From: Luidia sarsii
Lineage: Eukaryota > Echinodermata > Asteroidea > Paxillosida > Luidiidae
Direction of reading: 5' to 3'
Assembly (NCBI GenBank): GCA_949987565.1
Contig: OX465121.1
Coordinates: 3,613,117 to 3,677,116, forward strand
DNA: 64,000 bases
The translations under genes and the position numbers were made by a program. Shown piece after piece: positions 24,136-62,886 of this stretch; position 1 is the stretch's first letter; each line of letters starts with the position of its first letter. The notes under the pieces were generated by a model. It worked only from the letters and a program-made list of their open reading frames with translations. It made no database searches and was not told the origin of the DNA.

Positions 24136-24345
24136 CTACTGCCTCTCTGAAACGGACATGTCAAAGGTTGAGGTCTGGGTAGCTGTCAGGGTGGACATAT
24201 CTGACGCGGAGACCAGCGTAAGATCATACGACCGCTTGCTGTCCGATGGACACGTGCATGTGCAGACCAGGCGCCTCAGGTACGGGGCCACGAGGGTGCG
24301 AACCTCATCAGGACGAAGACAGAACATGACGAACACGAACACACC
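24136..24345 (-). CDS. Gene A terminal exon, version 1: end of TM7 and cytoplasmic tail
   Basis: 210-nt coding part starting in phase 0 after acceptor CACATCTAG. Splicing to 27013 gives NAFQGVFVFVMFCLRPDEVR, the conserved TM7-to-helix-8 junction. The tail has a cysteine cluster (VCTCTCPS, possible palmitoylation), is rich in serine and threonine, and ends TFDMSVSERQ before TAG. A second intact version lies at 18769-18954. No clear AATAAA was seen within about 500 nt downstream. Confidence 0.93.
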   Translation of the reverse strand, partial: GVFVFVMFCLRPDEVRTLVAPYLRRLVCTCTCPSDSKRSYDLTLVSASDMSTLTATQTSTFDMSVSERQ

Positions 24346-24789
24346 CTAGATGTGTGAGGAAAGTCTTGTTAGTATATAACTTAAGAATACTAAGAACCCA
24401 AGGATAGCACTTAAAGACTAAGTAGTTTGGACGTGCCTAAGCTTCGTAGAAACGACTAATTCATCAACTATTTTTCATAGCAAAATGTGATTTTTTTTGC
24501 CTAGACTAGAAGTTAATTACGTAAAAATGAGCAGATCTTGCATTAGGTAGTTTGTTTTCGGTCTGGGATCTGACAAGGAAGAGTATATTTGTCAGATCTA
24601 CATCTTACAAAATAAGTGCCACTTAAAATATAGGACAGGTCATTGCATTTAAGAACTAATGGCCGAGGGAAATTAACAACAATTAGCCAAAAAATGGAGA
24701 AAGAACGGAGGAAATCTAATTTGTTGTTAACGTTTATCTATAGCAGTAGAGGTCTTGGTTTAAAGTCCCATTCTTGTCAAAATAGCAGT

Positions 24790-25085
24790 AAGTTTTGTAA
24801 TTGTTTGCTTGACTTGAATTGAACAAAGCTGCATCCCCTTTGTGTGGTCCCCGAGCTGCTGTAGCCAGGTTTACAACAATTGTTTGTTTGTATATGAATA
24901 AAAAGGTGTGATTCCTGAAGATTTACGACAGTTAATGGTTGGCTTGACTCTGACTAACGGCAAAGACTGGCAAAGACTAGTTGCTTATTAGAGAAGGCAA
25001 CCATCTAAGCACAAGATAGCACAGATGGAAAAGCACTGGTACGTTAATCCAGAGGTCTCGTGTTCAAGTCCCGGGCTAGTCAACA
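24790..25085 (+). mobile_element. SINE family 2
   Basis: CGAGCTGCTGTAGCCAGG, GGCAAAGACTAG and the tRNA-like GGTACGTTAATCCAGAGG with B-box GTGTTCAAGTCCC. Confidence 0.72.
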
Positions 25086-26163
25086 TTTTCGTTGACAATC
25101 GTTCAATTTGTTGTTAAAGTAATAGATCGAGGTCGCCATTTTTTCTATATGCCGCTGATGCCAAAATATTGGCTTTTGTTGTTGGTTAATTCATAGATTA
25201 ATCTCCGGAAACTACTGAAAATTACATACAATTGTTTCTACAATCTAAGTAGGATCGGATATATAAATCACAGTTTAATGCCATGAAAGATAACAACCAG
25301 AGGGTCATTACCTGAGAAAGAAGACCAGAATATGTCGAGTCTTCTGACAGAAAAATGAAAGTGGCGAAAAAATATCTAACCGACCGCGATTGGAAGAGGG
25401 CGCTGTTCCTCATCCGGTATATTTAGTAACACATACACACAATTATCAATAGAACTTTCAAAAATGATGAAAAAGTGTCTCAGGAACATGATATATTACA
25501 ACAGTCATAATTATATTGACGCCAAAGGTAATTATATAGCCCACTATAAACAGAGAAGGGACTAGCCTGAATACAATACCCGAGATACATTTAAAGGAGA
25601 CAATAGAAGTACAAGACCAAGGAACAAGAACAAAAGGTAGCTGGTCCATGGAATGTAGTAGGCCTATGATCAAGGCATAATTATTTTCCCTCCTGTTCTT
25701 TTCAACCTCCCTTGGCAAGCCTGACTCATTCTTTGGTCTGCATATTTTTTGGCTACGAAAGCTGTTGCACGTTTCCTAACTAATTAATCTTTTAAGTGCT
25801 ATCATTAAGTTGGTGTTACTGAGCATAGCGTGGAAAGATAAACACACACCAGGGAAATCATTCGCTATCATAGCCCAGGATAGGTCTAGATAGTTTTGGA
25901 CGTCTCTATCCAAGCGGGACCTTTCTCAAAATTACAATGATCAAGACAGAACAAGACAGAAAAAAGGAGGAAGTAATAAGAATAAGGACGGAAGAATGAC
26001 AAATGAGGACAGCTGCAATGGATTCAATTAGTGTTTGCACTACTAGACGGACAATGGACATATGGTGTCCAGTGCAGTGCAGTGTCCGTTGTACGTTGTT
26101 ACTATATAATTAAAGTAAGACAAAAACACTCATTGCATTACACCTCACGGATGCACAAACATA

Positions 26164-26417
26164 TGTGACCCGGCACAGCGACATGAGGAATATCCCACCA
26201 AAACACTTTTCGAGTAAACAACGCCTAAAGTCAAAGTATCTTCTCAATTCGATTAAAAATTCATTTTTTTATTTTGGTGTGTATTTTCGGAAAGTTAATG
26301 TATTGGACGAAATTTGGATATCATTTGAAAAATAATGTTAACACTCTTTCATATCGTTAGAAAATCTCAAAATCGCAAAAGTGGAGGTCATTCTTCATTA
26401 TGATGTGCCAGGTCACA
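26164..26417. mobile_element. GTGACCCGGCAC MITE, copy 1
   Basis: Ends TGTGACCCGGCACAGC and TGTGCCAGGTCACA, with TA on both outer sides. A 254-bp non-coding element. Other copies: 29971-30725, 44692-44937, 46923-47174 and 48180-48626. Confidence 0.82.
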
Positions 26418-26639
26418 TAATTGTAAAAGAATGCTGGTTAGTAAATGGGTCTAAATAAAGCAAGTACGGTTTTAGTCTACCCTTCGTCGGTTTTGAAGCA
26501 AGGTTGTTGAAAGGGCTAAAGATGCTTCATCCACATATCCTCCAGATTTCGAACGGCACAGTCACTAAAATGATGGGGTGAGTTTCTACCCACAATTCAT
26601 CATCAATGGAATTTGAACAATTGGCTCACAAGTTCCCGG

Positions 26640-26955
26640 TTAGTTTCTCTTTGATTATTTTGACTTGAATTGAAAACCTGCGTCTACTTTAGTTTGATCC
26701 CCAAGCTACTGTCGCCAGGTTGGCACGAGTTGTTTGCATCTGAATGAAAGCTTGGGTTTGATCCCTGGGGATATACGGCACCTAATGGATCAATTGATTT
26801 TGACTGACGTCCCCACCCGGGCAAACACTAGTTGACAATTTGGAAGAGCGCTGATTAAAAAACTAGAGGTCTTGGGTTCATATCCCTGTCCTGTCATTTG
26901 TGTTTCCATTGTTTATCTTTTCTTCAAAAGTTCTCAGTCAGCTTTTAATTGACTT
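26640..26955 (+). mobile_element. SINE family 2
   Basis: CAAGCTACTGTCGCCAGG, GACGTCCCCACCCGGGCAAA and B-box-like GGGTTCATATCCC; ends about 60 bp before the TM5-7 exon. Confidence 0.68.
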
Positions 26956-27012
26956 GTTTAATATTTTAATTTTTCAAAACAGTTTTAATTTCCAGCAATG
27001 ACTGGGAGTTAC

Positions 27013-27301
27013 CTGGAAGGCGTTGGCCAGACAGAAGATGAGCTGGAAGGCTAAGGTGGCCTTGCAATCGGGATCACGAACGCTCATGGCAAGGAACCCG
27101 AAGCACCAGGCCAGCCCCAAGAGGACCGAGATGCCGACGGCGTTCTGGAGACGCTTGGTGATCTGCTGAGAGCGAGACGCCTCGACCACCTTGAGCAGAC
27201 TGCGCATGACCAGGACGAAGGTGACGAGGTTGTGGAGCAGGATGATACCGATGGGGACGATTTGGGCGATGTACAGCACAAGGTCCGGCTTCAAGAAGCA
27301 A
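27013..27301 (-). CDS. Gene A exon: ECL2, TM5, TM6 and most of TM7
   Basis: 289-nt exon, phase 2 to 0, acceptor TTCTCAG, donor GTAACT. It encodes the ECL2 cysteine (FCFLKPDL), TM5 (AQIVPIGIILLHNLVTFVLV), ICL3 with QQITKRLQNAVG, TM6 (SVLLGLAWCFGFLAM) and TM7 up to FQLIFCLANAFQ. The L.GL.W..G TM6 and N..QG TM7 patterns are specific for the adhesion/secretin group; the glycine after the final Q comes from the next exon. Confidence 0.97.
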
Positions 27302-28080
27302 CTGAGAAAAGGATAGAAAGGGCCACTCTACGAATAAATACTCAAAATAGCACGATATCTGTGGACAAAATAACTGGAGTGAGAAATGGTAGCCGGCTGT
27401 GATTGCTTGATTTTATGCGAGTGGCTTCAGTCCATGTGTGTGGGGGTTCTTACGTAAATCTATATTGGGCAACCTCCACGGCAGGTTAGTTACAATTCAT
27501 TGTTCTCGAGTTGAGTTAATCCCAGGGCAGCTGAATTCAACTTCACACAAAGAGTATAGCCATCGTGATTTGAGGAAGAAAACTCATTGGTAACACTAAA
27601 ATACATTGAAATACACGCGCAAGCAGGATACCAATCGTGGAGTGCTTGTGTGGCGCTGCGCAAGCAGTGTACTGAATTATCTGCTTCAAATCATGCTGCA
27701 TATGCTTATGACAAAGGTTATTGCCATGGTTATTGCAAGAGTTCATAACTCATGTAGTACGTAACGGTGCTACGATTCTGGCTACTACGCCTGGTAATGG
27801 ATAATGCAATAGCTACGGTTGATATGGGCCATGACCTTGTCTGTGCAACGGCAGAAATGTTTCTCATGCAAGCAGCCTGGGCATAAAAGTAAGAACAGGG
27901 AGTTGGCTTGGCACAAGTAGGTAAGTCCAGAAACAGCAGAAAACGGCAAGGCATGTAGGCCTGCATACCCTACGTATGTTCGGGGAACACTTGCGGACCA
28001 CTCAATTGAGGTGAGTATTCGCCGACGGGAAATGAAGCCCCACAGCTATATAAGTCATATGGTCGTACATGAACATGTTA

Positions 28081-28265
28081 TTGTAAAGAATTGTCCATTG
28101 TCCTTTGTCCTTTGTTTCTCATCTGTGTCCTATTCACTCTCTCCCCCTTCGTGTACTTGTATATGTCTTGTCCTTGTCACTCTGCCTTTGAGAAAGGTTC
28201 TGCTAGGATCGAAACGTCAGGCCCACTTAATTTTAAGAATTGTTTATTTGGTAATTTGTTTCGTT
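28081..28265 (+). mobile_element. Penelope-like 3' fragment
   Basis: TCCTTTGTTTCTCATC, CTTTGAGAAAGG, TGCTAGGATCGAAACGTCAG and a TTTGGTAATTT end, matching 8620-8710. Confidence 0.72.
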
Positions 28266-28653
28266 TGTTTTCCACACGCGGAAATTGGTTTCCTTATGTG
28301 TATACGCACGTCTTTATAGTATTTTGTGCCTATAATCATTTGCAAGTAGATGATAAAGTACCAAATTTTACGTTACAAACCTGTTTAGTTGCAATTTTAG
28401 GAACCCGATTGGAAATAAGTTGACATATTTTTATGGGCTATCTCTGGTATAACGTAATATCCATATACATTGTGCAATACATGTACTTGTTTATACTTTA
28501 TATCTTGTTTAATAATTTATGTTACATTTTGTTTCGCTGAGTGGTAAAACCGAATAGAATCCCATCAAACCAGTCTTTTCTCTACGCCGCCTCGTCAGTG
28601 CGATGCCATTTAAGCGCCCTCTTTCGTTCGATTTCGTATTTGTTAATGTACTT

Positions 28654-28725
28654 AATTATAATCTAAAATTTAGTGGGCCTGACGTTTCGATCCTAGCAGG
28701 ACCTTTCTCAAAGGCAGAGCCTACT
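28654..28725 (-). mobile_element. Penelope-like 3' fragment
   Basis: Reverse-strand CTGACGTTTCGATCCTAGCA and GGACCTTTCTCAAAGGCAG, an almost complete hammerhead-like segment. Confidence 0.7.
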
Positions 28726-29100
28726 TAATTATAATTAAATTCAACTTCCATTATGTACTAAATGTGCTTTTGTTCTTTCCCTAATGTTGTCCGAGTTGTG
28801 TAGTCATGCGGCATCTGAATAACGTCACCCTTTCTTCATCTTTTTCTGTGGCATATAATGTAACTAATGAATAATAACAACGTATTCATCTAATTACATA
28901 CCAGATGAGAAAATGTATAGGCCTTTTATGGCAGCAGATATTAAATGCATTGATGGGGCAAAGACTACTTTCGTTGCATCTGATGAAGCGGTTGTTGCTT
29001 TGAAAGTTTGTGCACTCTTCCCAACTGAAAAGTCTTAAAACGCCACCCTCAGAATACAGAATCCAATTGCTGCACAAAGACTGAATAGAAGGATACTTAC

Positions 29101-29167
29101 AAGTCCTCGTGTCCGTAGTGGTCAGATGCTGCTGCTAGCGAAATGATCACCACCAACAGCGGAGAGC
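29101..29167 (-). CDS. Gene A exon: TM4
   Basis: 67-nt exon, phase 1 to 2. It encodes GSPLLVVIISLAAASDHYG and HEDL; W-G-x-P at the junction with the previous exon and DHYG in ECL2 are family hallmarks. Donor GTAAGT. Small, but fixed by phase on both sides. Confidence 0.92.
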
Positions 29168-29714
29168 CTGTGATCAAATCAGAGACAGGAGTACACTACA
29201 GTCAATTACAGCCTCTGTCTGGTTCTGAGATGGAACGAAGCGCTTTGCCGCATCTTGGTAATGACTTCAACTTGGCCCAAACACCGATCTAGTTTCGAGA
29301 AAATTGGCCAGTGACTTATGTGTATTTTCAAAAGTCGCATTTTAATTAAAATGATTAAAATAATTAAATTAATTAAAATAATCTGGATAACAAGGTATAA
29401 TTTGTGTCAAAGGGAAAGTTTTGGGACGGAATGGTCAAAGATTTGAGTTAGAAAAATCGTCCATTGATGGCCAAACAGGCTTAAATTCATGCCAAATTTT
29501 TAATTTTTCATAACCGCATAATTTTATGAGATGACGTCACAGAAACATGGCTCATTTGTTATTCACCTTTTCCAACTTTGATAAATTCCAAGTTGAGATC
29601 TGCTTGGACCTACGTTTATGTCATTTTTGCACTTTTAGCGTTTGTCCCTTTAAAGCCGTACCTGAAAAGGAAATGTGTAAAACGAAGCAGGTCTTTTGAT
29701 ATGTAAAGCCTTAC

Positions 29715-29880
29715 CCCAAGCAATGAGGCATGCCTTGAGCATGTATCGAGACGAGTCCTCGGGGAAAACGTTCACCGTACTGACGTACATGATCCTGGCT
29801 TCCACGGCGGTCCACATCAGAGTGGTCAAAGTCAGGTAGTGGAGTAAAGCAGCCACGAACGCACAGCCGGCCAAAGAGTT
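29715..29880 (-). CDS. Gene A exon: TM3 and start of TM4
   Basis: 166-nt exon, phase 0 to 1, acceptor ATTATTAG, donor GTAAGG. It encodes AGCAFVAALLHYLTLTTLMW then VEARIMYVSTVNVF and KACLIAWG. The conserved TM3 cysteine, the LLHY motif and the tryptophan of adhesion-GPCR TM3 are all present, followed by the entry to TM4. Confidence 0.94.
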
Positions 29881-29970
29881 CTAATAATGAACGAAGCGAA
29901 AGGAAACCGCTTATGGACACATTGAGCTGGTAAAAATGTATCAAAAAATTAATACTATTTTTCCATTTTA

Positions 29971-30725
29971 TGTGACCCGGCACAGCGACATGAGGAATAT
30001 CCCACCAAAACACTTTTCGAGTAAACAACGCCTGAAGTCAAAGTATCTTCTCAATTATTTTGTTGTATTTTCGGAAAGTTAATGCATCGGTGGATACTAT
30101 GTCCAAAGGATTTTTCCGAAATCGGTCTCTAAATGTTGAAAAAACGGGGGAGTGTTTGTGTACTGTTTTCATGAAAATGTAAAGTTCCTGCCTTTTTGAA
30201 TGGCCGCTTTCGAGGAGTTAGAATTGCACTGCTATATTCACTGTAAAAACGAACTGCACCTCATGCACTTCTGCAATGGCACATATTTGTCCCAGAATCA
30301 TGAACACTTGAGGCACCTACTGTACTTCATGCACATGAAATACTGTAGCTGAAGCACATGTGGCATTGTAATCACTTGAGCAAAAGTCGGATGAGTTGCA
30401 TGAAGTGCTTCATGTACACGAACATCTCCCTATTTACTGTACCTCAAGCACATGGGGTGAAAGTGAGCATCACCTCGTGCGCATGTATCGTGCACCATGT
30501 GCCTCAACATTCTTCATCCATGTGCATGATGTGAGCACCGTTTTTACAGTGTTGTGTTTGGTGCCAAATGAACGAGCGAAGTCCCCTTGTACTGTTTACA
30601 ACAACGTTCACACGGAAATAATTTTGATATCATTTGAAAGCTAATTGTATACTCTTTCACAACATTAGAAAATCTCAAAATCTCAAGAGTGGGAGTTATT
30701 CCTCATTATGCTGTGCCGGGTCACA
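29971..30725. mobile_element. GTGACCCGGCAC MITE, long copy with nested insertion
   Basis: Same ends as copy 1, with a longer interior shared with 48180-48626. It is interrupted at 30239-30551 by another MITE. It fills most of the intron between TM2 and TM3 exons and ends about 25 bp from the TM2 donor. Confidence 0.82.
30239..30551. mobile_element. Nested MITE with CACTGTAAAAACG ends
   Basis: Ends CACTGTAAAAACG and CGTTTTTACAGTG, inserted into the MITE at 29971-30725. Comparison with the uninterrupted sequence near 48330-48350 shows the insertion point within a CTATGTTGTG sequence, with a 2-3 bp duplication. The interior is rich in CATGTGC/GCACATG words. Confidence 0.72.
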
Positions 30726-30749
30726 TTATAGTAGCCACAGTTCACCCAC

Positions 30750-30849
30750 CCTGGCGCTGTCGACACCCGCGAGGAACACAATGTACAGCATCAACAGAGA
30801 GACGCAGAAGTTGATGAAGATCTGACGAGATCGGCCGGATCGTAGTTTC
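30750..30849 (-). CDS. Gene A exon: ICL1 and TM2
   Basis: 100-nt exon, phase 2 to 0. It encodes KLRSGRSRQIFINFCVSLL and MLYIVFLAGVDSAR; basic ICL1 and the I..N...SLL pattern of TM2 match adhesion GPCRs. Two donors are possible (GTGGGT, or GTGAAC 4 nt on); only the first keeps frame with the next exon. Confidence 0.92.
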
Positions 30850-31354
30850 CTGAGACAATTAAAAGAATGCATGTGTATATTATTGTTTCTCAAAGGTGCA
30901 GTGTAAAATCTTGGGCAATAATTTACAAACATCTGTTCAGAGAGTTGATCAAATAATGAAGTCGTAACACCATTGTCAATAAAAGGTCATATGGTTGCAT
31001 TGCATAGTGATAATCAATTACGAACTTTCATGATCAAAGCAGACCCAGTGTTCGTCAACTGATGTACGAATTCTAGTATGATTTTGTGTACACTAGGAAA
31101 GGAAATTATGGTGCGTAAAACTTTGGTCGATGGGACATTACATGGTGTGTTGAAAAGCACTTATGTTGAGAAATAACAAATAATCTTTGAAAGGTACTAC
31201 CGTGTATGAAATGAATATGAAAGGGTTTGAATGTGAATGGGTACATTTCGTTATGGGGTGATTTAAGTGGAGTTATGGCATGCGTCTATGAAGGGCTGTG
31301 TACATTCATGCATTTGGTGTTACGTATTGTTTGATAAGGATTTATTTCCCTCAC

Positions 31355-31452
31355 CTGAAAAACAGATATACAACAAGAGTGATAGTCAGGCCAATGATGG
31401 ACAGCGCGCAGCCGACCTGACTGATGATATCAAGTGCTTTTGATTCACAGCC
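31355..31452 (-). CDS. Gene A exon: linker and TM1
   Basis: 98-nt exon, phase 0 to 2, acceptor TTGTCAG, donor GTGAGG. It encodes GCESKALDIISQVG followed by the hydrophobic CALSIIGLTITLVVYLFF, the first transmembrane helix of an adhesion-type 7TM domain. Confidence 0.92.
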
Positions 31453-31794
31453 CTGACAAATATAAAGAGATGAAAACATATCTCCCTGTTACAACGATTT
31501 CTAACAATTTGTGAAAATCACGAAGAATATTATACTTGAAGTAGCTTTTAACCCCATAATTCTGCCATCTCTCGACCACCAGAACGCAGTCTGACACATT
31601 TTACCAATAATTGATGTATATACTTCCAGAGACCACAACCATGTCTTTTTCATTCACATGCAAACGGAAATTAATTGTAAATCCAGCTACAGCAGTTCGA
31701 AAATCACCATATTATGTAACAGCATATATTTAGACAAACAAATAATGGCAAAAATGACTGAAAACCTTTGACCATTTTCTAAAAATACATGCCA

Positions 31795-32060
31795 CAATAA
31801 ACTTTGACTGGACCGGAACTCGAACCCGAGACCTCTCTGGATTAACGTACCAGTGCTCTCCTATCTGAGCTATCCAGCCCTCTAAATGGTTGAGGTAAAA
31901 ATAGTTAACTTGTCTTTGCAGGGGTGGGGCTGCAAGTCAGAGGGATTTAACCATTAACTGCCGTATATCTCCATGGACCACGCCCCCGATTTCATTCGAT
32001 ATAAACAACCAATTGTGTGTAACCCACGCTACAGGAATTCGGGAATCTTACAAACTGAAT
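31795..32060 (-). mobile_element. SINE family 2, reverse orientation
   Basis: Reverse-strand tRNA-like region (GGAACTCGAACCCGAGACC, then GATTAACGTACCAGTGC) followed by the AACCATTAACTGCCGTATAT body. In the intron between GPS and TM1 exons. Confidence 0.72.
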
Positions 32061-32426
32061 GCAGCTTTTTCATATAAAGGCAAACAAATAAAGAAAAAAA
32101 ATGACTGGGAGCATTATTATTTTAGGATTTACCTTAATGCAAAGGAAGTAAAATCTGGACAGCTTTCTTTTGAATATTTGTGACGAATAATAATTAAGGT
32201 ATAACAGACATATTGTAAACTGCCTACTGCCTAATGTCAAACATTGAAGGTAAGATAAATTGAAATTTGAGAAAAGATCCTGCCGTTTTACAAACGTCAA
32301 GCCCTCTCTATTTCAAAATTTTATTTATATGAGAACAGGATGTAAACGGAATGGTATTAGCTTTTGCATTTTTCCCTACAAAAGCCATACTACACATCCT
32401 AGGCCTGCAGTTAAGAGATGACGCAC

Positions 32427-32600
32427 CTGGGGTACAAGCAGGATGGCGAAGTTGGTGAGATGATCGCAGCTACAGACGACGGTCCTGTCTGTGGCCCGTG
32501 TAAGATTACATCCTTCATCAGACCAATTACCGTAGTTAAAATCCCAGAAGACACACACAAAACTGGATCCATTCCCCTGCGATGCATTTTGTTCGGGAGC
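32427..32600 (-). CDS. Gene A exon: GPS motif with autoproteolysis site and tethered agonist
   Basis: 174-nt phase 0-0 exon. It encodes FVCVFWDFNYGNWSDEGC and VVCSCDHLTNFAILLV: four GPS cysteines, two tryptophans and the cleavage triad H-L-T. In this family the GAIN domain cleaves between L and T and the new N-terminus (here TNFAILL) acts as tethered agonist. All residues needed for cleavage are present. The next exon supplies TM1. Confidence 0.97.
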
Positions 32601-32636
32601 CTGAAAACGACACAAAAACGGCAAAATACTGAAATG

Positions 32637-33135: not shown

Positions 33136-33489
33136 TGCCAAAAAGTGTCCCTGCCAAATACTGTCCGCTCATTAGCATACTGATCGCTGATTGGTTAGCG
33201 TTAGGACTAGGATTATGGTCGTTAGGGTTAGGGTTTGGTTTAGAATTAGGATTGGGATTAGGGTTAGGATTAGGGTTGTTTGGGTTAGGGTTAGCGTTAC
33301 GGTTACAGTTCGGGTCCAACGGTACCAAAGTGCCCAACGTTGCGTGTGTTAGGACAGCAACCATACACAATACGTGTGTAGTGCGCAACCATACCCCAAC
33401 CACGGTGGTTGAATGTCATACGTATTGGACCAATCAGCGATCAGTATGCTAATGAGTGGACACTATTTGGCAGGGGACACTATTTGGCA
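33136..33489. mobile_element. MITE with telomere-like core
   Basis: Inverted arms of about 60 bp: left arm TGCCAAAAAGTGTCCCTGCC through CATACTGATCGCTGATTGGT, right arm ACCAATCAGCGATCAGTATG to TATTTGGCA. Between them, 33200-33310 is degenerate GGGTTA/GGATTA telomere-like repeat. Located between the GAIN-B and GPS exons. Confidence 0.78.
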
Positions 33490-37714: not shown

Positions 37715-37774
37715 CTGTCATAGAGGGGGGAAGCAGCATAATTTTATCCTACTGCCTTATATCTCTGGGCAAAC

Positions 37775-38318
37775 ATCCACTCCACTGCACTCCACTCCAC
37801 TCCACTGCACTGCACTCCACTCCACTGCACTGCACTCCACTGCACTCCACTGCACTCCACTCCACTCCACTCCACTCCACTCCACTCCACTCCACTCCAC
37901 TCCACTCCACTCCACTCCACTCCACTCCACTCCACTCCACTCCACTCCTTTCCACTCAACTCCACTCCACTCCACTCCACTCCACTCCACTCCGTCCACT
38001 CCACTCCACTCCACTCCACTCCACTCCACTCCACTCCACTCCACTCCACTCCACTCCACTCCACTCCACTCCACTCCACTCCACTCCACTCCACTCCACT
38101 CCACTCCACTCCACTCCACTCCACTCCACTCCACTCCACTCCACTCCACTCCACTCCACTCCACTCCACTCCACTCCACTCCACTCCACTCCACTCCACT
38201 CCACTCCACTCCACTCCACTCCATTCCACTCCACTCCACTCCACTCCACTCCACTCCACTCCACTCCACTCCACTCCACTCCACTCCACTCCACTCCGCT
38301 ACACTCCACTACACTCCC
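37775..38318. repeat. (ACTCC)n pentanucleotide satellite
   Basis: About 540 bp of almost perfect ACTCC units with a few variants near 37800-37860 and 37945-37995. Long open frames on both strands are a by-product of the 5-bp period. In the intron between HormR and GAIN-A exons. Confidence 0.98.
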
Positions 38319-38345
38319 CGACCCGATGCAGTTTTATAGTGTTAC

Positions 38346-43317: not shown

Positions 43318-43443
43318 CGCCCTGACAATGGATGCCTGTAAAGCCATTGGCACAGATGCACTCGTAGCTGGCCACATTCTGGCGGCATCGGCCCCCATTC
43401 TGACAAGGCGTGGAATCCCGGCAGGTGTGGTCAACATTCATAT
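43318..43443 (-). CDS. Gene A exon: EGF-like domain 4
   Basis: 126-nt phase 1-1 exon, acceptor TTTCAG, donor GTAAGT. It encodes DHTCRDSTPCQNGGRC then YECICANGFTGIHC, a complete six-cysteine EGF domain. It follows propeller 2, as EGF modules follow propellers in LRP-type receptors, and precedes the HYR block. Confidence 0.92.
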
Positions 43444-54700: not shown

Positions 54701-55433
54701 CTGCACAGTGCACACGCACAGCGGCCACATGGCTGCATACGCGTACGCTGCACTACTCAAGCCTGATCGCAACATCCAGAAGACAGTTACGCTACAAAAA
54801 CAAATTTTAAAGTAATTTATTTTACTACCGAAACCAAACATAGATTGGGTTAATATTGGGGTGAAAATAGTGCCGGTCGGAAGCATCGTTTTTCACCAGG
54901 AGTGGTGGACGGAAATTACCCGTGCTGGTCGGCCCCGTCCACCGCCGACCAGCGTAGCTATAACACTGATTATTATGATGATAAAGAAAACGAATCCTCT
55001 GAAGAAATCTACAAAGATATTCGAGAGAAAAGTGAATTAAAACGGCACAGCTGAAGCGGAGAACGTACTGAAACCATTCGCAGGTATGCAAGCACAATGC
55101 TTGTAACCATTGGCGACCCGATTGTTTATCTACAATGACCTCTGACATATTCCCATAATGCCTTGCGCGCGCGAGATTCCGAAAAGGCTTATTGTATGAT
55201 ATTGGCACCCGATCTAATTCTTATCTGAAAACGAAATTCCGAGGTGCTTTAATGAGATTCGGGCCTATTCGTAGGTGGCGAGATAAGTCAAGAGTATTTT
55301 GCGGTGACGTCACGTATTCATCTTATGCGCGGGTCTGGTGGCGGAGCATGCTGACATGGGGCCATTTTATTTTCTTAAAAATTTTGTTTCATGTTGCTGT
55401 TCCTTCGAAATGATAAAAAGACCCTATCCGAAT
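51774..55433. other. Gene A intron between EGF 1 and EGF 2, left part
   Basis: R3 copy at 52250-52760; a TAG/TAGT-rich microsatellite at about 53738-53778; otherwise nothing recognised. Confidence 0.5.
52250..52760. repeat. Dispersed repeat R3, copy 3 (diverged)
   Basis: AAAGTGTTGGCTTTTTGCTG, TGTACACATTTCATAAATC and GAAACAGCCCAGTACACAT match copy 1 in the same order. In the intron between EGF 1 and EGF 2. Confidence 0.5.
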
Positions 55434-55580
55434 GCAGGGAAATGGCGAGGTCAAGGAGGAGCCATTGCAGTCTTTCCTCATCAGTAGTTTGTTAGCTCGA
55501 TTCCCTCTCAAAGAGATTCTTCGACTTTTCTTCTGCTTCTGTTATTTTCAAACAACACTGTACTATTATAACTATTTACT

Positions 55581-57233
55581 TTGTGTATATGTTTGTGTAT
55601 TGTGCTTTTGTTCATGTTCACCCAAAATAGTAGAAATTATTTTTCTAATGAGAGGGACGTATTGGCCGATAATGCAAATAATTGTTTAAATTGTCATGAA
55701 AATTCTCATAACAGTGTCCAGTGCGCTGATATCAATCTACTTCATTCTGCAACTAACTCCAGGTATTACTCCATTGATCAATTCCCTAGCGCTGTTAATG
55801 ATAGATCCATATCTATGCTGCATATTAATATAAGAAGCCTTCAGAAAAATTTTGAACAACTCAAAGTTCTGCTGCAGTCTCTTAATTTCAATTTTTCGAT
55901 AATTGCTCTTTCAGAAACCTGGCTTAAATTTACTCCTCCTAGTTACTATTCTTTGCCTGGATATGAGCTCTTTGTAAACAATAGACAAGGTTCAAAAGCC
56001 GGAGGTGGTGTTGCTCTGTACGTCTCATGTGATTTGAACGTTAGTACTAGGGAAGATTTGACATTTTCAGATGAAACCCTTGAATCCTTATTCGTTGAGA
56101 TTACTATTCCTAAGGCTCAAAACGTCACTGCTGGCGTCATTTACAAAGCACCCTCTGCTGAACATAAGATGTTTATAACCACTTTTCAAAGTATCTGCTC
56201 TAGAACTATATCTTATCATAATACCAAACCCTGTATCATCGCAGGTGACTTTAATATCAATCTCCTGAATAATTCCAATCCAAAGTCACAGTCCTTCAGC
56301 GACCTACTTACATCTTATTCTTTCCTTCCCTTAATTGACAAGCCCACCCGTATTACCGATAGCTCTGCAACACTAATAGATAACATTTTTACAAATATTC
56401 TGCCTTCTCCCAAATCAGGAATCTTATTGGCTGACATCTCGGATCACTTTCCGATTTTTTTGTTTACGCAGACTGTAACTTCAATTGATGATACCATCAA
56501 CAATGCCAGATACTCTTATTCTCGCGATTACTCCAACATTAATCTTCAAAGATTCAATGATGATTTGTGTTCCAGCGATTGGGACGATGTAATATCCTGT
56601 GGTAATCCGGAAATTGCATTTAATAAGTTCATTAGTAAATTCAATTACCTATATGATAAAAATATACCACCTATCCGACATATCCACAAATCTCCAAATA
56701 GTCGTAAAACCAAATCACCGTGGATCACTAAGTCACTTCTTAAAGCCATACAAAGGAAAAATAAACTCTATTGCTACTATTTATCCCACCCCACGATCCC
56801 AAATAAAACCAAATACACTAAATATAAAAATACACTAACGAATCTATTACGTTCTTCAAAAACTGACTATTATGCTCGTCGGTTTCAACAGGAAAAGAAC
56901 AACATCCACAATACGTGGAAAATAATTAATTCGGTTTTGAATACTTCAAAAAGACCCTCCCAAGCAATAAAGGGTATCGTCTCGGATGGCAAATTAATCA
57001 ATAGCACTACTCATATAGGCACAAATCTTGCCAGTAGTTCCCCAAGCAGTCACTCATCCAGCAAATTCTCAGACTACCTGACCAATCCTCATTCTCACTC
57101 TCTATTTTTTGTCCCGGCAGACGAACATGAAGTTATTGACATCGTCAACAACTTGCGAAACAAAACAAGCTCTGGCCACGACTCAATTAGCACAGACCAA
57201 TATCTATACTCACATGCTTTTCCAAGATTTTAG
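55581..57233 (+). pseudogene. LINE ORF2, N-terminal part: AP-like endonuclease and linker
   Basis: 550 codons. LHINIRSLQKNFEQL, IIALSETWLK and GGGVALYVS, then IAGDFNINLL and DISDHFPIFLF are the motifs of the exonuclease-endonuclease-phosphatase domain (N, E, D.N and SDH residues present). The linker ends NNLRNKTSSGHDSIS, the first RT motif, after which the frame is lost. About 30 codons before the methionine motif region are unassigned; any ORF1 is absent or unrecognised. Confidence 0.85.
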
Positions 57234-57256
57234 AAAAATGCGCTTATGCCCGAACT

Positions 57257-58489
57257 ATGAAATTCCTAAATAAATTTAATATTTTGAACAATTCACAATT
57301 TGGATTTCGTAGAAAACACTCCACAACTCACGCCCTTCTTGATTTTATAGACAAGGTCTCCTGTGCAATTGACAAAGCTCAACACACCTTAGGGATTTTC
57401 CTTGATCTCTCTAAAGCCTTTGACACCATAGATCATGATATTCTGCTACACAAACTATCATATTATGGTATCCGAGGCATCCCCTTGGACTGGTTTAAGA
57501 GTTATCTATCTAATCGAACTCAATATGTCTCTCTCAATGGAAACTGTTCAAACTTATGTTATTTATCCCACGGTGTACCCCAAGGATCAATTTTAGGACC
57601 ATTGCTCTTCATACTTTATGTTAATGACTTTGCTAAATCATCAAATATACTTTCTTACATTATGTTTGCAGAGGATTCAAATCTATTTTTTTCACACAGC
57701 AACCTTAGTCTTCTCCTTGACACGGTGAACGACGAACTAAAATCCGTTGCAAATTGGTTTCGAGCCAATAAGCTAGCTCTCAATATCAACAAAACCAATT
57801 ACATGTTGTTTAGTAATACTGCTAGTGAACTACCCGATGAAGTGGCAATTAATGATTCTGTTATCAACAAATGTGACTGCGGTAAATTCCTTGGCATACT
57901 TATTGACTCTGGACTTACCTGGAAACCACATATTAATTACGTATGTAAATTAATTGCCAGAAACACTGGAGTAATTAACAGAATTAAACATTTTGTGCCC
58001 GCAACTGTCCTCAATTCTCTTTATAATACATTAATTGTGCCATATATCAACTATGACATTCTTGCCTGGGGTAATAGTCCCGCCTGCAACTTAAACAGGA
58101 TACTTGTTTTACAAAAGCGGGTCTTGCGCTCAATCAATTTCACTGAGCTTCTTGCACACTCTGATCCCCTCTTTCTGAAACATAAAACCTTAAAAATTAA
58201 AGACATCTATTGTCATCAACTTGGGTCCCTCGTGTATCAATCCACATGTAATTTACTACCATCTGCAATTAATGCTATATTCAACAGGAACCATGAAGTT
58301 CATACCCACTTCACACGCCAAGCCTTAGACTTCCATATCCCATTAGCCCGAACAACACTTGCTAAAAAAACAATCAAATATGAGGGGCCCAAACTTTGAA
58401 ACTCACTCACTGACCAACTTAAAACCTCAAAAAACCTCTCCACCTTTAAACGTGAGTTTAAATCTAACCTATTGAAATCATATCTCTGA
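57257..58489 (+). pseudogene. LINE ORF2, C-terminal part: reverse transcriptase
   Basis: QFGFRRKHSTTHALLDF, LDLSKAFDTIDH and GVPQGSILGPLLFILYVND are RT motifs; the catalytic box reads MFAEDSN instead of FADD, a change of an active-site aspartate to glutamate. The segment between the first RT motif and SKILEK is missing (internal deletion with frameshift at 57200-57257). A TGA at 58397-58399 replaces the conserved tryptophan after GPKL; the frame then runs to 58489. Inactive. Confidence 0.85.
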
Positions 58490-59237
58490 TTCGAGAGTTG
58501 AAGTTGACATGTATTATCTACTCTATTTTTTTTTTTTTAGCTGAATCACATTACTATCTAACGGCGACATATTTCGCTATATTTCCCAATCATTGCCTAT
58601 TCCTCAAATTCGTTTTGTTTTCTCTGCTAAGTGTATAATGTATCTAATTAGTCCTTGTGTATAGTTTTCTATGTGTTTTGTGTTAATACTAAGGATTTGT
58701 GTTCTATTGATTGATTGCTTCACTTGAATTGAGCCCTCTCCCTACCGTTTACGGTCTAAATTAGCATGAGCATTCCTTTTCCGGCTCAGTGCAAGTGTTG
58801 CAATGGGGCCCAACACTTAAAAGCTGTGCTTCTTGATGGGTCCCTCTGCAGTATCGCATTCATTGTTTATTTATATTAAGTTATCACTTAATGTGCCAGT
58901 CCTTTCCCTATTAATTTTGCCTATTCATTCTTTGTGATGTACATTCTGTGATATGTGCTTTGTTGGTTGATGCTGTGGAAAAAGAAATAAACTAAAACTA
59001 AACTAAAAACTAAAACTAAGATTGAATTTAAGAGCTTACAAACCAAATTGCAAAGGGAGGAGGGTGCACATGAAGCCTTCTAATTCTCACGGCATACATT
59101 TCAATAAGTATAGTGTGACAAAAATGTTAATGGCTTATCAATGAATGAATAACTAAATGTGTGTGAATGACTTTCTTTTGAGGGAGCGAAATAAAGTTAC
59201 GCACCAACTATGTCCGTACCATGCAGATGAAACTTAC

Positions 59238-59354
59238 CAGTTAAGCAGAGTGCATCATTGCGACAAACACAGGCATAATTAGTGGCAAACTGCCTGCACC
59301 GCTGGTTTGTTTCACAAGGTTGAAGGTCCGTGCAGCTATGGTCCGTGAAGTGGT
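59238..59354 (-). CDS. Gene A exon: EGF-like domain 1
   Basis: 117-nt phase 1-1 exon with acceptor AG at 59355-59356 and donor GTAAGT. It encodes DHFTDHSCTDLQPC and six cysteines in total with EGF spacing (the last pair in VCRNDALC). An EGF module after a YWTD propeller is the usual LDLR/LRP order. The exon is nearly identical to gene B exon 11061-11177, within the large segmental duplication. Confidence 0.88.
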
Positions 59355-59449
59355 CTGCAAGAAAAACATAAAACAACAGCACTTGAAAGGAGCGATTACA
59401 GAACGAATATCTAAGAGATAAGTTTATAGGGTGAACTGAAACGGTCGTT

Positions 59450-60785
59450 TGATGAAACTAAATTCAGCTGAGCCGAACATAACCCAGCGGAGCTGACGTA
59501 AGTTTGGCTGAGCTGAGAATAGCTGAGCTGGGCTGAATTGAGTTTACTCCGAGCTGAGCTGAGTTTACTCCGAGCTGAGCTGAGTTTACTCCGAGCTGAG
59601 CTGAGTTTACTCCGAGCTGAGCCGAGTTTACTCCGAGCTGAGCTGAGTTTACTCCGAGCTGAGCTGAGTTTACTCCGGGCTGAGCTGAGTTGGGCTGAGT
59701 TTAGCTGAGCTGAGAATAGCTGAGTTTCGCTGAGCTGAGAATAGCTGAGTTGGGCTGAGTTTAGCTGAGCTGAGAATAGCTGAGTTTAGCTGAGCTGAGA
59801 ATAGCTGAGTTCGGCTGAGTTTAGCTGAGCTGAGTTTAGCTGAGCTGAGAATAGCTGAGTTTAGCTGAGCTGAGTTTAGCTGAGCTGAGAATAGCTGAGT
59901 TTAGCTGAGGTGAGTTTACTCCGAGCTGAGAATAGCTGAGTTTAGCTGAGCTGAGAATAGCTGAGTTCGGCTGAGTTTAGCTGAGCTGAGTTTAGCTGAG
60001 CTGAGAATAGCTGAGTTTAGCTGAGGTGAGTTTACTCCGAGCTGAGCTGACTTTAGCCAAGCTGGGCTGAGATTAGCCGAGCTGGGCTGAGTTTAGCTGA
60101 GCTGGGCTGAGTTTAGCTGAGTTTGGCTGAGTTTAGCCGAGCTGAGTTGAGATTAGCCGAGCTGGGTTGAGTTTAGCTGAACTGAGATGAATTTAGCTGA
60201 GCTGAGTTTACTCCGAGCTGAGCTGAGAATAGCTGAACTGGGTTGAGTTTAGCTGAGCTGAGTTTAATCCGAGCTGAGCTGAGTTTAGCCAAGCTGGGCT
60301 GAGATTAGCCGAGTTGGGCTGAATTTAGCCGAGCTGAGCTGAGTTTAACCGAGCTGGGCTGAGATTAGCTGAGCTGAGCTGAGTTATCCAAGCTGGGCTG
60401 AGATTAGCGGAGTTGGGCTGAATTTGACCGAGCTGGGCTGAGTTTAGCTGAGCTGGGCTGAGTTTAGCCGAGCTGAGCTGAGTTTAGTCGAGCTGCGCTG
60501 AGATTAGCTGAGCTGGGATGAATTTAGCTGAGCTGAGTTTACTCCGAGCTGAGCTGAGAATAGCTGAACTGGGCTGGGTTTAGCTGAGCTGAGTTTAATC
60601 CGAGATGGGCTGAGTTTAGCTGAGCTGGGCTGAGTTTAGTTGAGCTGGTCTGAGTTTAGCCGAGTTGGGTTGAGTTTAGCCGAGCTGGGCTGAGTTTAGC
60701 CGAAATGAGCTGCGTTTAGCCGAGCTGAGCTGGGCCGCGCTGGGTTGCATTTTGCTGAGCTAAGCTGAGCTGAGCTTAACCTAGC
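59450..60785. repeat. GAGCT/GGGCT minisatellite, right copy
   Basis: About 1.3 kb of GAGCTGAGTTTAGCTGAGCTG-like units (here also with TTTACTCC variants) in the intron between EGF 1 and the propeller exon. Homologous to 11885-13332, but the two arrays have homogenised different unit variants. Confidence 0.95.
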
Positions 60786-60848
60786 AGAACTGGACTGAAG
60801 TGATTAGATGTGGAGTAGTGAAGCAAATCACATTTGACCCATTCTTGC

Positions 60849-61106
60849 CTTTGTAAATGTGCAGTCCTCCGGCTTTTGAGAAACTGGGGGAGCCTGAACC
60901 CGTCACGGGACCAGCCGCAGTCAGGTCCAGGCTGAGAAGACTACTATAGGTCCAGTCGGTCCAGATGACGCTGCTGTTGTAGTACCAGATGTCGAAAGGG
61001 TGGATGTTGTAGAGGGCCAGACTGGCATGAGTGCGCCGATCCTGACCTTGGAGGTTCACGGATTCGACCAGATCTAGCCCCGCGTCGCACCAATAGATCC
61101 TACCTC
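60849..61106 (-). CDS. Gene A exon: YWTD propeller 1, last blades (GC donor)
   Basis: 258-nt exon, phase 1-1, acceptor AG at 61107-61108. It encodes GGRIYWCDAGLDLVES, then SVIWTDWTYSSLLSLD, and ends SKAGGLHIYKG, the closing strand of the propeller; the corresponding exon is 45751-46005 (255 nt). The splice donor at the exon end reads AAAG then GCAAGA, so this looks like a GC-AG intron; the paralogous exon has the ordinary GTGAG. An unspliced reading would continue open for a while, but the phase match to the EGF exon at 59354 supports the GC donor. Confidence 0.88.
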
Positions 61107-61168
61107 CTGGACAGAATAATAGACAAGCGGAGAATCGACTACCATGTATCTTAAGCTCGATGCAGAAG

Positions 61169-61683
61169 TAGGAAGGAAGGAAGGAAGGAAGGAAGGGAGG
61201 GAGGGAGGGAGGGAGGGAGGGAGGGAGGGAGGGAGGGAGGGAGGGAGGGAGGGAGGGAGGGAGGGAGGGAGGGAGGGAGGGAGGGAGGGAGGGAGGGAGG
61301 GAGGGAGGGAGGGAGGGAGGGAGGGAGGGAGGGAGGGAGGGAGGGAGGGAGGGAGGGAGGGAGGGAGGGAGGGAGGGAGGGAGGGAGGGAGGGAGGGAGG
61401 GAGGGAGGGAGGGAGGGAGGGAGGGAGGGAGGGAGGGAGGGAGGGAGGGAGGGAGGGAGGAAGGAAGGAAGGAAGGAAGGAAGGAAGGAAGGAAGGAAGG
61501 AAGGAAGGAAGGAAGGAAGGAAGGAAGGAAGGAAGGAAGGAAGGAAGGAAGGAAGGAAGGAAGGAAGGAAGGAAGGAAGGAAGGAAGGAAGGAAGGAAGG
61601 AAGGAAGGAAGGAAGGAAGGAAGGAAGGAAGGAAGGAAGGAAGGAAGGAAGGAAGGAAGGAAGGAAGGAAGGAAGGAAGGAAG
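61169..61683. repeat. (GGAA)n-(GGGA)n-(GGAA)n compound microsatellite
   Basis: About 515 bp purely purine on plus: short GGAA run, about 66 GGGA units (61195-61458), about 56 GGAA units (61459-61683). It makes up most of the 596-bp intron 61107-61702; in the gene A transcript it is all pyrimidine. Confidence 0.98.
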
Positions 61684-61702
61684 CTTCTTTAAGCCATTGT
61701 AC

Positions 61703-61830
61703 CTGTAACATCTACGGATATTCCATTCGGCCACTGCAGGCCGCTGTCAACGATAACTGTTCTCAATGTGCCGTCGATATTAGCTTTCTCGATTTTGGGG
61801 GAATTCCCCCAGTCTGACCAGTACAAATGG
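61703..61830 (-). CDS. Gene A exon: YWTD propeller 1, HLYWSDWG blade
   Basis: 128-nt exon, phase 2 to phase 1, acceptor AG at 61831-61832 after a pyrimidine tract, donor GT at 61701-61702. Splicing to the previous exon creates the sequence [17 protein letters not shown], a textbook LDLR-B blade, followed by [10 protein letters not shown]. That junction confirms both borders. It is the counterpart of 46471-46598, with the same length and phases. Confidence 0.93.
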
Positions 61831-62708
61831 CTGAAAGAAAAAAAAAATGATTCGGTAAATTTCAAAATAAAAAACAGAATATTTTGATCTTTCGAATTCG
61901 TGAAAGTGATACTAATAGAGCTTTCATGTTGCCAACTGCACATGTACATAACCCAAAATGTGAACGGGACGTGGAGTTGTGATCCTAGCAAACCGAGTGT
62001 ATAAATGGAAATAAGTCCATTATGTTTGTTTGGCCAGACGAGTGACTCGATCTTACAGACTGTATGCTCCACACTGAGCTTGACGTCCCCTCTAATTGCT
62101 AGGACACGCCCCCTCCTCCAGTCCATCCACAGCTGGCATATCCGGAGGGATGACTGTCAGTCAGTCAAGACTTAAGAGTGATGCCAACTTCCAAGTGGAG
62201 ACATGAACTACAGCACACAGTCCAGACGTTTTTATGTACACGCTCGATCTATTTTGTCCAGTGTGAGTTCGTGTAGGGAACACCCCACAAGTATACGTGT
62301 GTACGAGGTGTGTGTGGGGGGGGTGTGTGTGTGTGCGCACGTAAGGTGGGTTGTGGGGTACCAGAACAATGGGTGGGTACTCAGAACAATGGGACCGCAC
62401 CTTGTGGGGTACATTTTTGGTACCCCATAAGGTTTTCACGAAACGGGTTATTTGGAATTGACTCGAAAAGAAGGAAATTCCGAGGTATGTTTATTAGTCG
62501 CAAACAGAACTATATTATATAAGGGACGTTCGCTAGAGATTTCAGCCTTGGAAAGTGATTCTCGTTCGGAAGGGAGCTATTTGAATTAGGCTTTTCTGGG
62601 AGTGTTTTTTTAAGTACACGAGAGCAAAGGGAATACCCCCAAGTATACGCGTGTAAGGGTGTGTGTGGGTGTGTATATGTGTGTCTGGATTCGAATGAGT
62701 ATGCGCAC
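61831..62708. other. Gene A intron with TG/CA runs
   Basis: Short TG-rich runs at 62305-62340 and 62660-62690 each follow AAGTATACG(C/T)GTGT and lie within related sequence (CCCCACAAGTATACGTG, CCCCCAAGTATACGCG). Nothing else recognised. Confidence 0.5.
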
Positions 62709-62886
62709 CTGTTCACTGCGTCCAGAACGATAGCTCTGGGCTCCACTGCTTGACCATCGGGAGCTGTCAATTTGAGAAGCACAGTTCTGGATTGACCGTC
62801 CATCGTTGACCGTTCGATCAGGTCACTGCCAGTATCAGTCCAGTACATCAGGCGATTGGCCACGTCAAGGCAGATCCCATCCGGCT
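62709..62886 (-). CDS. Gene A exon: YWTD propeller 1, blades with NRLMYWTD motif
   Basis: 178-nt exon, start phase 1, end phase 2. The acceptor is AG at 62887-62888 and the donor is GT at 62707-62708. It encodes an LDL-receptor class B segment with NRLMYWTDTGSDLIER and ends RAIVLDAVN, the start of the next blade. It has the same length and phases as the 47237-47414 exon, so the two are duplicated cassette members. In the LDLR family such blades form a six-bladed extracellular propeller that binds protein ligands. The exon matching 49031-49273 should lie upstream, beyond 64000. Confidence 0.92.

Follow-up and report, generated by a model that had tools for sequence, protein, structure and literature searches.

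The 64-kb stretch of Luidia sarsii DNA analyzed here (the window) very likely contains most of one starfish adhesion G-protein-coupled receptor (GPCR) gene. From its distal end to the membrane, the predicted protein consists of a YWTD propeller, three EGF-like modules, a second, membrane-proximal YWTD propeller, another EGF module, four HYR modules, a GPR128_N-like domain, a GAIN domain with its GPS, and a class B2 7TM domain. To our knowledge, the YWTD propeller has previously been tied only to LRP/LDLR, nidogen and EGF-precursor proteins. Within the literature searched, we found no paper describing a YWTD adhesion GPCR, and to this extent the statement in an earlier note that none had been described holds. 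However, RefSeq already contains such proteins under other names, which include 'LRP2-like', 'adhesion G-protein coupled receptor G6-like' and 'hyalin-like'.

Gene model and domains

We rebuilt the exons from splice-site scores and phases. The resulting model has 27 exons on the minus strand (62886-24136), with every junction phase compatible. Its coding sequence of 4,910 nt comprises 1,635 codons and a stop, this final codon being the only stop, and thus agrees with the 27 exons and approximately 1,635 codons originally reported. All introns but one (25 of 26) are GT-AG; the remaining intron, after exon 3, is GC-AG (AAG·GCAAGA, where the dot marks the junction). Among 3,561 AG sites on the minus strand, the 27 acceptors range from the 71st to the 100th percentile in a simple matrix, with exon 15 lowest and exon 1 at percentile 84. 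The 5' part of the gene, i.e., the first blades of propeller 1 and any signal peptide, lies beyond base 64000 and so outside the window. The window gene is a prediction from genomic sequence, and the RefSeq proteins of its relatives are also predictions.

Matches of the window protein to Pfam profiles are far above chance for the main domains. The profile for YWTD repeats (Ldl_recept_b) matches 8 stretches (5.4e-52). Exons 1-3 (62886-62709, 61830-61703 and 61106-60849) encode the last four blades of the distal propeller, which is incomplete in the window, with four YWTD-like motifs in a motif scan. The membrane-proximal propeller is complete and is encoded by exons 7-10 (49273-49031, 47414-47237, 46598-46471 and 46005-45751); its motifs are accompanied by sequence matches to structures of LRP2, LRP4, LRP6, LDLR and nidogen. 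The lengths of exons 1-3 (178, 128 and 258) are mirrored by those of exons 8-10 (178, 128 and 255).

Pfam finds EGF in 3 stretches (1.1e-13), and by cysteine count there are four six-cysteine EGF-like modules. Three of these lie between the propellers, in exons 4-6 (59354-59238, 51773-51651 and 49940-49824), and the fourth follows propeller 2 in exon 11 (43318..43443; Pfam EGF at residues 582-613). A copy of exon 4 has 1 synonymous and 9 non-synonymous changes, with a ratio of 2.3 that comes from too few changes to rely on; for a copy of exon 5, dN/dS is 0.58, from 3 + 6 changes. The four HYR modules (1.5e-31, 4 stretches) occupy exons 12-15 (42640-42368, 42086-41856, 41478-41206 and 40924-40694). 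Exons 12 and 13 are nearly a copy of exons 14 and 15, with 270 of 273 and 224 of 231 bases identical, and the four modules consist of two tandem copies of a unit of two exons, with a period of 1,162. Propeller 2, the EGF unit and the HYR units all have phase 1 at both ends, which would permit module exchange.

Exons 16-17 (39574-39461 and 38464-38346) had been read as a HormR domain. Pfam gives no HormR match there, and we instead find a weak match to GPR128_N (PF22257), with 13.9 bits in the whole protein and 19.2 in a cut piece, both below the cut-off of 27.2. In related proteins, this profile reaches 27.3 (P0021) and 30.8 (P0020), i.e., above the cut-off, and 26.3 (P0012) and 24.3 (P0002) below it, and no Pfam match to it is listed for P0008. 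The other domains in the earlier note's list, namely LDLR-B, EGF, HYR, GPS and 7TM, are found by Pfam. The GAIN region of exons 18-20 (37714-37571, 36090-35703 and 34094-33913) is 48-59% identical to those of six relatives in an alignment. The GPS is encoded by exon 21 (32427..32600), matches at 6e-15 (residues 1283-1322), and directly precedes the 7tm_2 match (5.1e-39), which begins at residue 1332 and covers profile positions 3-250 of 250. The 7TM domain and cytoplasmic tail are encoded by exons 22-27 (31452-31355, 30849-30750, 29880-29715, 29167-29101, 27301-27013 and 24345-24136), the stop ending at 24136. Among solved structures, the best matches are ADGRG2 (1.1e-51) and ADGRG6. A second phase-0 terminal exon for TM7 and the tail, exon 27b (18769..18954, minus strand), has its own stop, a dN/dS of 0.36 against exon 27 and an acceptor at the 98.8th percentile; it is a candidate alternative last exon, or a relic.

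Related receptors in starfish and brittle stars

We ran three protein searches, each over approximately 8,000 candidates that shared most words within a set length range; one homologue listing covers 120 of 239 matches. Among the matches listed, YWTD and 7tm_2 (PF00058 and PF00002) occur in one protein in at least 14 of 228 homologous clusters. Thirteen of these 14 are assigned to asterozoans, namely the starfish Patiria, Acanthaster and Asterias and one brittle star.

P0002 (LOC110978214, Acanthaster), P0008 (LOC119729609, Patiria) and P0005 ('LRP2-like', Asterias rubens) contain two YWTD propellers, EGF, HYR, GPS and 7tm_2 in the same overall order as the window gene, with 49-68% identity over the propellers, GAIN and 7TM. 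They differ between propeller 2 and HYR, where P0002 and P0008 are without EGF and P0005 has many more EGF modules than the window gene. They also have HAT at the GPS, whereas the window gene has HLT. In sister receptors, the place of YWTD is taken by modules of the SRCR, NIDO, C-type lectin or discoidin type. These labels (SRCR, NIDO, C-lectin, F5/8) are our reading of the Pfam accessions, and any protein in which SRCR and NIDO occur together was assigned by hand to one or the other. The window gene belongs to a predicted asterozoan receptor family with a conserved HYR-GPR128_N-GAIN-7TM core, an ADGRG-like 7TM domain and varying distal modules. We considered whether splicing swaps the N-terminus, given that P0012 (YWTD) and P0026 (SRCR) are named as isoforms X2 and X3 of a single locus. 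However, identity over the part that they share is no more than 58%, which makes them different receptors and not isoforms.

Predicted signaling

The cleavage consensus of adhesion GPCRs is H-L followed by T or S, with cleavage after the L, and then a hydrophobic Stachel. The window gene reads CSCDHL·TNFAILLVPQ (the dot marks the cleavage site), with HLT intact, and its product probably works as a signaling adhesion GPCR via a tethered agonist. The arm of propellers, EGF and HYR would bind a ligand from the matrix, a neighboring cell or a microbe. The motif suggests that the GAIN domain cleaves itself at HL·T, with the N-terminal fragment presumably remaining attached. If the ligand is bound under tension, or if the fragment is lost, the agonist TNFAILLVPQ would be freed and, by analogy with adhesion GPCRs in general, could activate the 7TM domain and a G protein.

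A less probable reading is that the gene is real but its product stays uncleaved and serves mainly in adhesion or as a decoy, signaling through G proteins weakly or not at all. We examined the GPS of 62 family members, 54 of which fit the motif pattern and 8 of which do not; 38 of the 54 have HAT rather than HLT. Given this predominance of HAT among the relatives matched, cleavage may not be general across the family. The large ectodomain is also in keeping with adhesion, and paralogues lacking a TM domain hint at a role in the matrix. On the other hand, the window gene has an intact HLT and Stachel, and its 7tm_2 domain is likewise intact over its full length.

One gene or two

That these domains are joined in one gene, as the earlier note had proposed, is borne out by single-protein homologues, by alignments across exon junctions and by a probable transcript, P0021. 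A join of two neighboring genes is unlikely. In the most concrete version of such a join, which we regard as very improbable, exons 1-6 would belong to a secreted YWTD/EGF protein without a TM domain and exons 7-27 to a receptor with a single propeller. Proteins of both kinds do occur. P0009 and P0010, from two relative species, are TM-less YWTD gene models with a similar C-terminal tail, and a separate YWTD gene could therefore lie close by; both apparently share their contigs with receptor genes. In the propeller tree (see below), window propeller 1 clusters with their propellers, together with the distal propellers of P0002, P0008 and P0005. Single-propeller receptors are represented by P0012, P0019 and P0021, and P0012 shares the propeller-EGF-HYR order of the window gene.

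However, a pattern scan between exons 5 and 7 found no tail exon of the P0009 type, and a filtered scan of 51650-49300 found no phase-1 first exon with a signal peptide, where a control intron gave two overlapping candidates, although the short patterns and filters of these scans may miss diverged exons. Moreover, two propellers in one receptor recur in P0002, P0005, P0007 and P0008. The junction of exons 6 and 7 aligns in P0002 and P0008, and the three EGF-like modules between the propellers are matched at the same place in both. The junction of exons 10 and 11 aligns in P0012, and that of exons 15 and 16 in all three proteins. The junction of exons 11 and 12 is matched loosely, the EGF module being absent in P0002 and P0008, and P0012 being aligned across a long gap. 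We therefore retain the single gene over the alternative that the earlier note named as its refutation, in which the YWTD/EGF exons end in a gene of their own.

It is scarcely credible that the YWTD and 7TM exons come from wholly different genes and that no YWTD adhesion GPCR exists: the relatives' gene models are automated, and misjoins do occur in such models, as RefSeq locus LOC110978300 spans two different receptors (X2 and X3), but the combination recurs in five species (four starfish and one brittle star), and in P0021 it runs from YWTD to 7TM in one uninterrupted protein of 1,162 aa on a contig of 4,945 bases.

A gene of this kind would not fit on so short a contig in its genomic form, so P0021 is probably a transcript. 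Its order is a hydrophobic, signal-like start (judged by eye), propeller, EGF, HYR, GAIN and 7TM. An AlphaFold2 model of P0021 contains the propeller, with a pLDDT near 90 for most residues of 41-240, as well as HYR, a GAIN domain with an alpha part followed by a beta part, and seven helices; its overall layout and EGF region are weak, with a pTM of 0.42 and whole-model TM-scores of about 0.2. The fold matches listed include propeller-EGF structures of LRP6 and LRP4 and an inactive CD97 structure. A viral fold search gave no informative match, with listed identities of 8-18%.

Ancestry of propellers and cores

The propellers had been called LRP-type. We built a tree of 59 propellers from 25 proteins chosen by hand from the 228, plus the window, with shorter propeller matches dropped. 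The asterozoan propellers form a clade of 27 rows (support 100/99) that excludes the sampled propellers of LRP4, LRP6, LRP2-like proteins and nidogen, in a tree without LDLR and LRP1, and the distal/proximal pair is recovered in P0002, P0005 and P0008. An ancestry from LRP propellers is thus not what this tree indicates; "LRP-type" suits the fold of the propellers and, on the sampled sequences, not their descent.

Our tree of the receptor core used 56 of 76 scored proteins, with P0020 included twice (57 rows); 20 were left out as non-asterozoan or divergent, among them P0132, by score threshold. The starfish cores form a clade that does not include those of the brittle star, the window receptor is at a basal fork without resolved order, and the tree requires 5 changes of the YWTD label. 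Hence, the core tree does not show that the fusion arose once for starfish and brittle stars: the propellers form one clade, but the cores do not.

Comparison with known protein families

The window gene has several features of an adhesion GPCR (class B2), namely a 7TM domain, a GPS/GAIN before TM1, HL·T with a Stachel, and a modular N-terminus. ADGRG2, ADGRG6 and ADGRG7/GPR128 likewise have GAIN/GPS and 7TM, and the GPR128_N match of the window protein is weak and below the cut-off; we know of no vertebrate ADGRG-type receptor with YWTD propellers or HYR. Other propellers do occur in adhesion-GPCR ectodomains, i.e., olfactomedin in ADGRL and EPTP/EAR in ADGRV1, but these are not of the YWTD type. 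With LRP4/5/6, LRP2, LDLR and nidogen, the window gene has in common a YWTD propeller followed by EGF, which match in sequence and fold. However, where LRP and LDLR have one TM helix and a tail, the window gene has GAIN/7TM; no LDL-A (PF00057) is listed at E up to 10 for the model, whose 5' end is outside the window, and its propellers do not group with the LRP4, LRP6 and nidogen propellers sampled. YWTD and HYR are also found in one chain in Glandiceps P0157, Acropora P0112 and the SVEP-like P0171 of Asterias, but these have sushi modules and are without GPS or 7tm_2.

Implications for starfish receptors

We tentatively suggest, as a rather doubtful possibility, that these genes constitute a clustered starfish recognition system. 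Tandem receptors would be built on one HYR-GPR128_N-GAIN-7TM core with exchangeable YWTD, SRCR, NIDO, C-lectin or discoidin arms. The YWTD paralogues that are secreted have propellers matching the distal one of the receptors, and these proteins would perhaps act as decoys or as soluble partners. Exon 27b might allow the window gene to switch TM7 and its tail. Coelomocyte proteomics in Asterias rubens names LRP-family and SRCR surface proteins, and in passages of that paper (PMC13409769) we found no link from these to the YWTD receptor family. We also found nothing specific to this family in passages of PMC9759900 and PMC11595613, or in PMC9971248.

Some adhesion GPCRs stand in public databases as 'LRP2-like' or 'hyalin-like' proteins, and the YWTD propeller joins the ectodomain repertoire of tethered-agonist GPCRs. 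The family is a natural experiment, in which one signaling core with different arms could reveal how a propeller, SRCR or lectin gates a 7TM domain. With sister receptors that carry SRCR and lectin arms, the idea of an immune role in starfish can be tested directly.

Gene structure and domain order

We rebuilt the gene model on the minus strand from splice-site scores and phase bookkeeping. This independent derivation returned the 27 exons of the earlier note, running from 62886 to 24136 and comprising 4,910 nucleotides (1,635 codons plus a stop) with all phases compatible. The introns are GT-AG in 25 of 26 cases; intron 3, following exon 3, is GC-AG in a strong context (AAG|GCAAGA). Several introns carry repeats: long arrays of TCCAC and AGGG in introns 17 and 2 (37776-38317 and 61170-61680), a LINE-type retrotransposon in intron 4 (55572-58399, plus strand; two overlapping frames encode its endonuclease and reverse transcriptase) and a degenerate telomere-like repeat of CCTAAC type in intron 20 (about 33195-33300, minus strand).

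Pfam confirms each of the LDLR-B, EGF, HYR, GPS and 7TM modules that had been read on this strand, with Ldl_recept_b at 5.4e-52 over 8 stretches, three EGF and four HYR stretches, one GPS and a full-length 7tm_2. The proposed HormR domain was not borne out: Pfam gives no HormR match, and GPR128_N matches weakly at that place, under its cut-off. GPR128_N exceeds its cut-off in two of five receptors scanned, namely P0021, which has a single propeller, and the brittle-star receptor P0020.

The modules are ordered as propeller 1, three EGF-like modules, propeller 2, EGF, four HYR, a GPR128_N-like region, GAIN, GPS, 7TM and tail, and each of the four EGF-like modules has six cysteines. Propeller 2 has five YWTD-like motifs and one degenerate motif, while propeller 1 has only four within the window because its first blades fall beyond base 64000. 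The three exons common to both propellers have matching lengths (178/128/258 in propeller 1, 178/128/255 in propeller 2) and like phases. Propeller 2, EGF and HYR units are bounded by phase 1 at both ends, and HYR exons 14-15 are a near-duplicate of exons 12-13, offset by 1,162 bases.

Evidence for a single gene

Genes encoding YWTD/EGF proteins that lack membrane helices occur in relatives (P0009 in Acanthaster, P0010 in Patiria). They end in a similar C-terminal tail and, judged by contigs of equal size, share contigs with receptor genes. We therefore tested the alternative named in the earlier note, that the YWTD/EGF exons form a separate gene. At 51650-49300, neither a tail exon of the P0009/P0010 type (pattern scan) nor a first exon in phase 1 that encodes a hydrophobic stretch (filtered scan) was found, although diverged exons could escape either scan. 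A control intron yielded two overlapping candidates.

Relatives were sought in three protein searches, using the whole window protein (239 matches, 120 of them listed), the core of the single-propeller receptor P0019 (63 matches) and P0020 (89 matches), with 228 listed clusters in total. With only some 8,000 candidates scored per search, relatives elsewhere may be missed. The proposed combination of YWTD with GPS and 7TM in one protein recurs: Ldl_recept_b (PF00058) and 7tm_2 (PF00002) occur together in 14 of the 228 clusters, from Patiria miniata (6), Acanthaster planci (3), Asterias rubens (2), A. amurensis (1) and Amphiura filiformis (1), together with P0021. Among the roughly 8,000 candidates scored per search, PF00058 was absent from the listed 7tm_2 relatives of sea urchin, sea cucumber, crinoid and amphioxus. 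P0021 is an uninterrupted protein of 1,162 residues with a signal-like start, encoded on a 4,945-base contig, which is presumably a transcript given that the window gene covers more than 38 kb. P0020, the A. filiformis entry, is a 2,269-aa model holding two consecutive YWTD-GAIN-7TM receptors, and is either a double receptor or an annotation fusion of two genes.

The large modules of the window protein are co-linear with those of the two-propeller receptors P0002 (Acanthaster), P0008 (Patiria), P0005 (Asterias rubens) and P0007 and of the single-propeller P0012 and P0021, allowing for gain or loss of propellers, EGF and HYR. The EGF modules permit no one-to-one pairing, and the first HYR type matches P0008 at only 28%. 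At the junction of exons 6 and 7, both P0002 and P0008 align closely (CE..SHP(Y/F)DLVFV). Three further junctions had been singled out for checking. That of exons 10/11 (45751-43443) aligns closely with P0012 (GGL.IYKD...DHTC...PC), and that of exons 15/16 (40694-39574) likewise with P0002, P0008 and P0012. The third, between exons 11 and 12 (43318-42640), is matched only loosely, P0002 and P0008 being without that EGF and P0012 having additional HYR there.

Structure and descent of the propellers and receptor core

An AlphaFold2 model of P0021, built with 27 relatives, reached a mean pLDDT of 72 and a pTM of 0.42. Its propeller has a pLDDT of about 90 across most of residues 41-240; the EGF region is weak, and the rest comprises an HYR sandwich, a GAIN region running from alpha to beta, and seven membrane helices. 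Among 50 listed Foldseek matches, LRP6 and LRP4 propeller-EGF structures appear from rank 1, several pairs of single propellers reaching TM-scores by target of 0.72-0.77; CD97, in its inactive form, is at rank 12. By sequence, propeller 2 of the window gene resembles LRP2, LRP4, LRP6, LDLR and nidogen, and the GAIN-7TM part best matches ADGRG2 and ADGRG6.

The description of the propellers as LRP-type holds for the fold but, within the range of propellers sampled, not for the lineage. In a tree of 59 propellers, which included LRP4, LRP6, LRP2-like and nidogen but neither LDLR nor LRP1, the propellers of starfish and brittle-star receptors and of the proteins without membrane helices form one clade of 27 rows (100/99), and none of the sampled LRP4, LRP6, LRP2-like or nidogen propellers falls inside it. 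Inside that clade, propeller 1 of the window gene belongs to a group (99/97) made up of distal propellers from P0002, P0005 and P0008 and those of the starfish genes lacking membrane helices. Propeller 2 lies outside this group and shares an open fork with the remaining members. On this phylogenetic evidence, a distal/proximal propeller pair is common to several starfish.

Of 57 GAIN-7TM cores placed in a tree, 43 form one clade (starfish receptors, the window gene and two further rows), with arms that we labelled YWTD (14), SRCR (13), NIDO (5), C-lectin (2), discoidin (1) and others (8). The window receptor sits at an unresolved basal fork, with a top identity of 67% (to P0011); this position and these identities point to a starfish source other than the species named. 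The YWTD label needs five changes on this tree, three of which well-supported branches make unavoidable, and the brittle-star cores lie outside the starfish clade. A single YWTD-receptor fusion may account for starfish and brittle star, but the pattern is read most simply as receptors exchanging or losing modules.

Exon duplicates and a probable neighbouring gene

A second copy of the last exon, exon 27b (18954-18769, minus strand; phase 0), repeats TM7 and the tail, with a strong acceptor (98.8th percentile) and its own stop. Its dN/dS of 0.36 against exon 27 suggests constraint at some time after duplication. Copies of the remaining core exons were not found by tblastn between exons 27 and 27b. 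Exon 27b could serve as an alternative last exon or represent a duplicate's relic.

What is probably the next tandem gene lies at about 1380-11177 (minus strand), running off the window start, with three HYR exons and copies of EGF exons 4 (11177-11061) and 5 (8051-7929); no propeller or SRCR exons were seen there using tblastn with relatives. The exon-4 copy and exon 4 itself are each immediately preceded, on their upstream side, by a 20-base minisatellite (11932-13325 and 59490-60776); the two arrays are related, a sign of segmental duplication.

Novelty and possible function

The claim that no adhesion GPCR with a YWTD propeller has been described stands for the literature open to full-text search, among matches listed: no listed title or opening of an abstract indicated such a receptor, and no paper combined adhesion GPCR with YWTD, or with both GPS and LDL receptor class B. 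In the accessible parts of the literature compared, which included a choanoflagellate survey (PMC12716839), amphioxus adhesion GPCRs bear LDLa, SRCR, C-lectin and other modules (PMC2246102), LDL-A is found in rhodopsin-type receptors of Ciona (PMC2396169), and a 2026 adhesion-GPCR review (PMC13197933) does not mention 'YWTD', 'propeller', 'HYR' or 'low-density lipoprotein'. The YWTD adhesion GPCR is a real, conserved architecture inside a well-known receptor class; we did not find it described in the searchable literature, which does not prove its absence from print.

The GPS of the window gene retains an intact HL|T site with the Stachel TNFAILLVPQ. The receptor would be expected to cleave itself there, and ligand binding by the propeller/EGF/HYR arm would then release the tethered agonist and initiate G-protein signalling. 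Of 62 family members examined, 54 match the GPS pattern, with HAT in 38, HLT in 14 (including the window gene), HTT in 1 and HGT in 1. Starfish members are mostly HAT, whereas HLT is shared by the window gene with the brittle star and the matched outgroups. Because HAT occupies 38 of the 54 sites, many starfish relatives may have weakened or lost cleavage, and a family-wide change in cleavage is possible among starfish members.

P0012 and P0026 of Acanthaster, the latter an SRCR receptor, are annotated as isoforms of one locus, LOC110978300, but their shared part is only 58% identical, and they are different receptors. Calling distinct receptors isoforms, as at this locus, hides a receptor family in the annotation. 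The three-propeller proteins without membrane helices, P0009 and P0010, could possibly be secreted partners or decoys. Since sister receptors bear SRCR and lectin arms, a recognition or immune role is plausible for the starfish receptors.
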